Shown in pieces: positions 42,611 through 43,042 of a DNA stretch of 54,478 nt (its first letter is position 1; each line of letters opens with the position of its first letter). This stretch comes from Promethearchaeota archaeon (GTDB lineage Archaea > Asgardarchaeota > Lokiarchaeia > Sigynarchaeales > SOKP01). The translations under genes and the position numbers were made by a program. Where the stretch lies: contig JAGXOB010000006.1 in assembly GCA_019894735.1 (NCBI GenBank), forward strand, positions 1 through 54,478, given 5' to 3'. The notes beneath the pieces were generated by a model, which had not been told where the DNA came from, ran no database searches, and saw only the letters and a list, made by a program, of their open reading frames with translations.

Positions 42611-42764
42611 GTCTAATAGGTTTAATACAAATCCTTTTAAGTTTAACGATTTGTCATGAAAAAGTTTAATTACTAGTCTTTACTATTTCTATTACTTACA
42701 ACCACATAAATAAAGCATTTTACAATAATATAGCCGAACTTATGGAATGGTTGTTAGTGGTGTT

Positions 42765-42944
42765 TTTAACCACATAATCTTGTAGCGATTAGCTACAACG
42801 CCGGAAGTTAAACTGTTTTGCGTTGCAGATAGTACTGTAGTTGAAAATCTATGGGAACTTGCAAACTGTAGCCTCGGCTACGGTCATGGTAATACAGGAT
42901 AGTACCCGGTACCATCCGAACCCGGAATCGCAAATGTGGTTAAA
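42765..42944 (+). rRNA. rrf: 5S rRNA, circularly permuted (3' half precedes 5' half)
   Basis: The 3' half of a 5S rRNA comes first (42801-42873: GGAAGUUAAAC, GCG, AGUACUG, helix IV CUGUAG/CUAUGG, loop-E GGGAA, then CUGUAGCC), joined by UC to the 5' half (42876-42927: GGCUACGG, helix II AAUACAG, CCCGGU, CAUCCGAAC, CCCGGAA). Helix I is thus a hairpin, CUGUAGCC/GGCUACGG. Helix II pairs AAUACAG (42891-42897) with CUGUUUU (42813-42819), one mismatch. Leader UUUAACCACAU (42765-42775) pairs with trailer AUGUGGUUAAA (42934-42944). A normal linear 5S is not present in the window. Core from the first G of GUUAAAC (42805) to 42927 is 123 nt. A T-run follows at 42962. Confidence is high for 5S identity and for permutation of the gene; processing is inferred. 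Confidence 0.9.
42780..42798 (+). other. leader hairpin resembling helix I
   Basis: TTGTAGC (42780-42786), loop GATTA, GCTACAA (42792-42798) forms a 7-bp hairpin in the leader of the permuted 5S gene. Its stem sequence repeats that of helix I (TGTAGC/GCTAC). Part of it, GCGATT at 42785-42790, is also complementary to AATCGC at 42926-42931 in the trailer, so two alternative pairings exist. Confidence 0.6.
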
Positions 42945-43042
42945 CAATATCACTGAAATCGTTTTTTCCTTATAAAAAATGTTTTTAAATCATACATTAT
43001 AAGATCTAATAAGAGTTAATTAATTGAGTTTTGAAGATTTAT

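Follow-up and report, generated by a model that had tools for sequence, protein, structure and literature searches.

Few RNAs are as conserved as 5S rRNA, and no known group is more closely related to eukaryotes than the Asgard archaea. A permuted 5S rRNA was reportedly described in mitochondria by Valach in 2014, and neither a bulge-helix-bulge (BHB) motif nor splicing machinery is known to be associated with it. In archaea, a permuted gene is known for the SRP RNA of Thermoproteus tenax, where a BHB is cleaved in vitro by the splicing endonuclease EndA and the RNA is circular (Plagens 2015, PMC4731332, accessible part of the text). According to the accessible part of another study, archaeal 16S and 23S pre-rRNAs are circularised at a BHB by EndA and RtcB, and circular 23S rRNA is found in ribosomes; it is 16S and 23S, not 5S, that are processed in this way in the cultures studied (PMC12918454). 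Circular RNAs containing 5S have been recorded from Halobacterium and Sulfolobus, with variable ends and a suggested origin in degradation (PMC12558985, accessible part), and the reversed halves of permuted tRNA genes are rescued by circularisation (PMC10085705, accessible part). As for the Asgard archaea, a 2022 study of closed genomes states, in its accessible part, that existing models could not predict their 5S genes (PMC8813620). A literature search, with preprints and most subscription papers outside its scope, found no report of a permuted archaeal 5S.

The locus described here lies in a 54,478-nucleotide stretch of lokiarchaeial DNA, here called the window. The RuBisCO encoded in it is 95% and 93% identical, over the best segment, to that of Candidatus Lokiarchaeia/Lokiarchaeota MAGs, which marks the source as a Lokiarchaeia-type Asgard genome. 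At positions 42807-42927 there is a complete 5S rRNA whose 3' half comes first and whose 5' half comes last, with helix I between them under a tetraloop cap; the flanks carry elements that may serve in its expression and maturation:

42739..42747, + strand: TATA-box-like stretch CTTATGGAA (CTTATAAAA in G008), from the sequence and an eight-sequence alignment; 18-26 nt before the leader stem; putative promoter
42765..42775, + strand: 5' arm of the outer leader/trailer stem, TTTAACCACAT; exact reverse complement of 42934-42944
42780..42798, + strand: leader hairpin TTGTAGC-GATTA-GCTACAA, from the minimum free energy fold
42799..42807, + strand: 5' half of the BHB, with outer CG, central CCGG (42801-42804), bulge AAG and predicted cut after 42806
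42807..42927, + strand: predicted mature 5S rRNA, 121 nt, permuted, whose ends would be joined after BHB cleavage
42807..42873, + strand: 3' half of the 5S, with the 3' strand of helix II, helices IV and V, and the 3' strand of helix I
42866..42883, + strand: helix I as a hairpin, with a CUCG tetraloop at 42873-42876
42876..42927, + strand: 5' half of the 5S, with the 5' strands of helices I and II, helix III and loop C
42922..42930, + strand: 3' half of the BHB, with central CCGG (42922-42925), bulge AAU, predicted cut after 42927 and outer CG
42934..42944, + strand: 3' arm of the outer leader/trailer stem, ATGTGGTTAAA; pairs with 42765-42775 (11 bp)
42962..42967, + strand: six-T run in the sequence, possible archaeal terminator

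The outer-stem core TTAACCACAT with ATGTGGTTAA is common to all eight aligned sequences, and by eye the leader of G008 keeps a hairpin of changed sequence. Scans for sigma-70 promoters and hairpin terminators returned nothing above chance. The limits 42765-42944, which the first-pass annotation had assigned to the gene, are the ends of the 11-bp leader/trailer stem and not those of the 5S.

Rfam holds a family for permuted 5S rRNA as well as the ordinary one, RF00001. At Rfam's own cut-offs no RNA family was called in the window: there was no gathering match to a permuted 5S family, RF00001 was the only 5S family to appear at E <= 10, and in genomic order no 5S match reached its gathering score of 38 bits. 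What RF00001 does find are two weak halves in swapped positions, 42876-42961 at 18 bits and 42783-42866 at 15.3 bits, and a score under the cut-off is what a permuted order would be expected to give. When the 121 nt are read as a circle, that is, as the sequence joined to itself, an HMM trained on 27 linear 5S genes from this phylum (and distinct from the Rfam model) scores them at 38.0 bits, covering positions 4-118 of 120; in genomic order the score is 13.1 bits. The same reading raises the score in 92 of 92 main-type loci (median 21.5 to 44.2 bits, where the linear 5S genes themselves score 89.4 bits), and shuffled circles gave zero matches to this HMM. The de-permuted RNA is predicted to fold as a three-way 5S, and all its helices pair when laid out by hand. 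The earlier claim that the 3' half lies upstream of the 5' half is thus confirmed by the swapped Rfam halves and the circular reading, and we consider the permuted order of this gene virtually certain. The break falls in the AA bulge of helix III, so that 42927 would join 42807; it had first been placed in loop B, a position that we read, by eye, in one other genome, G092. Helix I, as had been proposed, becomes a hairpin and is present in the fold, with a loop formed by the four bases CUCG (UUCG in each of the seven sequences aligned with it) in place of the two-base UC thought to join the normal ends.

The pairing of helices I to V, also asserted in the first-pass annotation, is upheld both by this layout and by covariation. 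The sample for covariation, loops and BHB motifs consisted of 100 loci, namely that of the window plus 99 from 98 genomes, drawn from 139 genomes with a permuted gene; loci left out include L066, L116, L125, L144, L146, L182, L185, L186 and L197. Among its 99 distinct sequences all five 5S helices are present and covary: 95.8% of cells are paired against 64.2% in shuffles, 30 of the 32 pairs have changed on both sides, cells changed on both sides number 983 against 267 in shuffles, and the covariation score is 0.807 against 0.212, all figures that lean towards the model because the alignment was fitted to it. Sliding the partner by 1-3 columns leaves only 34-45% of cells paired. The 5S structure is under selection in the permuted loci. 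The loop of helix I has exactly four bases in 82 of the 100 loci and is of the UNCG kind in 62. As a minor point, helix IV of the 5S at L023/L058 (G008) is some 28 nt larger than in the window.

How widespread is this arrangement? Each of the seven near Lokiarchaeia genomes has one permuted 5S gene. In the phylum that contains Lokiarchaeia (227 genomes, taken to be the Asgard archaea), where the best 15 candidates per genome were scored, the permuted order was found in 139 genomes and a linear 5S over the Rfam cut-off in 64. The two forms are nearly mutually exclusive, occurring together in five genomes (G002, G049, G118, G021, G038), and neither was detected among the best 15 candidates in 29. 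Two covariance models were used in these searches. R1, built from eight sequences, matches 85 of the 227 genomes at E <= 0.1; the broader R2, built from 45, matches 156 at E <= 0.01, reduced to 139 once 17 weak matches were dropped, again on the best 15 candidates per genome. Part of these 139 match by construction, because the training sequences of R2 came from this very collection of genomes, and R1 is the more independent of the two. The 139 score either 41.0 bits (one fragment at a contig end) or at least 53.9 bits; among 194 genomes drawn from a control phylum, that of the 'Parvarchaeota' MAG G007, 50 gave weak R2 matches at E <= 0.001, with a top score of 34.2 bits. Permuted is thus the commoner 5S state in the phylum.

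The matches set aside deserve a word. The 17 weak R2 matches (E 1.1e-5 to 0.0087) all come from genomes with a linear 5S and were taken as partial matches; an R1 match in G186, at 22.9 bits, was discarded likewise, this genome having a linear 5S over the cut-off. As to the five genomes with both forms, the linear 5S of G002 adjoins a bacterial-type 23S, and its contig was taken as foreign, of plastid or bacterial origin; the locus L034 (G002:C263) of this Lokiarchaeota MAG carries a bacterial-type 23S, a 5S, a tRNA and, by eye, a LysR-like gene, and was read as plastid or bacterial contamination. The linear genes of G049 and G118 also have a bacterial-type 23S alongside, on contigs taken as foreign; the 23S gene at L081 (G118:C68) has a group I intron match. 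The contig that carries the linear gene of G021 was likewise taken as foreign: its rpoB is in two pieces, and its ORFs, inspected by eye, suggest a different archaeon. The linear hit of G038 is a marginal, spurious match of 38.4 bits overlapping the permuted copy. In the seven nearest Lokiarchaeia genomes, all of them MAGs in which every candidate was scored, no linear 5S was accepted as the genome's own, the sole match over the cut-off being taken as a contaminant. The window's own genome presumably lacks a linear copy too, judging from these relatives, and the permuted gene is very probably the functional and sole 5S gene of these genomes.

A putative processing signal overlooked in the first-pass annotation sits at the borders of the gene. 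The leader CCGG at 42801-42804 can pair with CCGG at 42922-42925 (4/4 pairs), between the bulges AAG and AAU. Beside the bulge, the outer helix of this BHB has 2 bp in the window and 3 bp (ACG/CGU) in six close relatives. Across loci, central helices include CCGG/CCGG, CUGG/CCAG, CCGA/UCGG, CGUG/CACG and CGGG/CCCG, and outer stems reach up to 16 pairs. For a count of the motif, 8 of the 100 loci were excluded as belonging to other or unusual types (L134, L136-L139, L120, L128 and L195, the last of which looks by eye like a main-type locus whose loop C has gained an insert). Four central pairs of four, a three-base 3' bulge and at least three outer pairs are found in 64 of the remaining 92 loci, whereas mixed leader/trailer pairs show them in 601 of 8372 cases (7.2%), taking for loci and control alike the best of five registers that were picked after inspection of the loci, with related loci not independent of one another. 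With at least five outer pairs the count is 44 of 92, against 1.8% of mixed pairs, and under a looser rule (which also admits 3/4 central pairs if the outer stem has at least 4) it is 73 of 92, against 9.9%.

EndA usually cuts both bulges after the second base. Applied to the two commonest registers, this rule would give canonical 5S spacing, ...CGAACxCGGAA/GUUAAG... and ...CGAACACGGA/AGUUAAG... (the slash marks the join). In a third register (7 loci) one base would be left over, unless the 3' bulge were cut after its first base, and L193 and L194 deviate in another way. The joined sequence, allowing up to two mismatches, is absent from the DNA of 7/7 genomes, and it is absent from the window DNA. 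The central BHB helix appears in the minimum free energy fold of 20 of 76 precursors, and that of the window is not among the folds that contain it; imposing it has a mean cost of 1.5-3.3 kcal/mol by group. The helix is disfavoured because it competes with helix III of the mature RNA for the same strand, and thermodynamic folding alone, as predicted here, does not pick the BHB. In a Heimdall-like block (most of L161-L173, around G015-G037) the 5S is permuted, but a BHB is mostly absent from the registers examined; this block possibly uses a different end-joining signal. A more distant candidate stem can be seen there by eye, CCAG/CCGG/CCAA against CU(A)GG or UU(A)GG.

The best explanation of the locus, to which we give a probability of roughly 0.8, is that EndA excises the RNA and RtcB closes the 121 nt into a circular 5S. 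The gene would be expressed as a short separate transcript of about 200 nt, folding with its leader paired to its trailer. The leader repeats the sequence of the helix III 5' strand and would pair with the 3' strand of that helix, forming the 4-bp helix between three-base bulges that defines the BHB. EndA would cut within both bulges, RtcB would ligate the 121-nt piece to itself, and the join would restore the canonical ...CCGAACCCGGAA/GUUAAAC..., upon which helix III could re-pair within the RNA, helix I having been sealed by its tetraloop before joining. With its ends joined and helix I sealed, the RNA received by the ribosome would be a covalently closed circular 5S. EndA-type proteins were found in all eight genomes tested (seven permuted and one linear, G186), with two copies in six of them, and so was RtcB, a weak test because both are general archaeal enzymes. 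In G016 (G016:C1:1674331-1677159) the RtcB match falls into two segments of a single 993-aa frame, a pattern that an intein would produce.

Compared with the systems described above, the locus shares with the T. tenax SRP RNA a permuted gene for a universal RNA, a BHB at the ends, a splicing endonuclease and a working circle, here proposed. The RNA and the lineage are different, and cleavage and circularity were demonstrated there, whereas the 5S is known here from its anatomy; also, the accessible part of that paper names two Thermoproteus species for the permuted SRP RNA (PMC4731332), whereas the permuted 5S extends through much of a phylum (139 of 227 genomes). The circularised 16S and 23S precursors would involve the same BHB, EndA and RtcB as those proposed for the 5S, but come, in the accessible account, from genes in normal order (PMC12918454). 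The 5S circles of Halobacterium and Sulfolobus are covalent, like those proposed here, and no permuted gene is mentioned in the accessible part of the report (PMC12558985). The permuted mitochondrial 5S has the order in common with ours, but that gene is organellar, whereas this one is chromosomal, archaeal and equipped with a cut-and-join signal.

Could the permuted gene be functional and its RNA nevertheless stay linear, EndA or another nuclease trimming a transcript whose ends, at the AA bulge of helix III, are held by pairing? Some mitochondria may keep their permuted 5S RNAs in this form. Permuted organellar 5S RNAs have been reported (Valach 2014, as cited in the accessible part of PMC10085705), and helix III would indeed keep such ends together. 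A BHB with covarying outer stems is, however, the substrate of a cut-and-join pathway, RtcB is there in 8/8 genomes, and in most loci the predicted join restores a canonical 5S, something for which an unligated RNA would have no use; we therefore regard a linear product as unlikely, with perhaps one chance in eight or so conceded to it in our judgement. Less probable still, and by a wide step, is that the RNA becomes a circle which is later opened close to helix I to give an ordinary linear 5S. This is the course taken by permuted tRNA transcripts, which are circularised and then cleaved, so that the circle is reopened to the standard form, unlike the proposed 5S (PMC10085705, accessible part). 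Here the four-base helix I loop of most loci, so often of the UNCG kind, leaves no extra linker in which a cut could fall, and selection seems to have favoured a stable cap.

The idea that the locus is a pseudogene, an assembly artefact, or a copy beside an overlooked true linear 5S draws on the incompleteness and contamination of MAGs, on the silence of Rfam at this locus and on the restriction of the phylum searches to the best 15 candidates per genome. Against it stand the same order with compensatory changes in 139 of 227 genomes and the scoring of all candidates in the seven near genomes. Furthermore, G175 and G016 have permuted 5S genes (two copies in G016), and the RF00001 matches listed for them are all under the cut-off and overlap the permuted loci. 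An explanation of this sort is close to refuted. The initial reading of a permuted 5S gene stands, and the permuted order is the commoner state of the phylum; the break site has to be moved and the BHB added.

If EndA and RtcB do produce a circle, ribosomes with a circular 5S would be standard in Asgard archaea, and 5S would join the RNAs that depend on tRNA-splicing enzymes. Existing models missed the Asgard 5S genes because these are permuted, and permuted covariance models find them. The system also offers a testable case of how a gene permutation becomes fixed and perhaps reverts.

Its history appears to be a complex one. In L134 and L136-L139 (G107, G132, G130, G127, G126) the break lies opposite the usual one in helix III, on the loop C side, with BHB-like ends by eye, and a third site, apparently in loop B, was read by eye in L120/L307 (G092:C63); since the break sites differ, the permutation has moved or arisen more than once. 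On an rpoB tree of 89 genomes, the linear 5S occupies four separate groups with permuted genomes between them, and the linear form needs four changes, at least three of them forced by well-supported branches. This tree is a single-gene, unrooted one from a quick search, with genes hand-chosen from the 200 of 227 genomes that had a match; one of 90 genes, L237, fell out for an internal stop, and the change count covers genomes with one or the other 5S form. Two histories would fit: an early permutation in the phylum, reversed on several occasions, or repeated origins at the same place. A bolder and tentative reading, which we hold at rather less than even odds, is that a circular 5S is the ancestral and still the commonest state of the Asgard ribosome, and that the four clades with a linear 5S, perhaps eukaryotes too, regained it from a permuted gene, tandem arrays being one conceivable route. 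One such array occurs at L183 (G062:C510:3474-4090), where two permuted 5S genes follow each other at 157 bp from start to start, with unrelated outer stems that each pair with their own trailer. Between the two copies the 5S can be read in normal order (RF00001, 31.2 bits, under the cut-off), which provides a route between the permuted and linear forms in either direction. Among linear genes, G095 (C1:1399892-1400758) has three in tandem, of equal score and with a period of about 375 bp.
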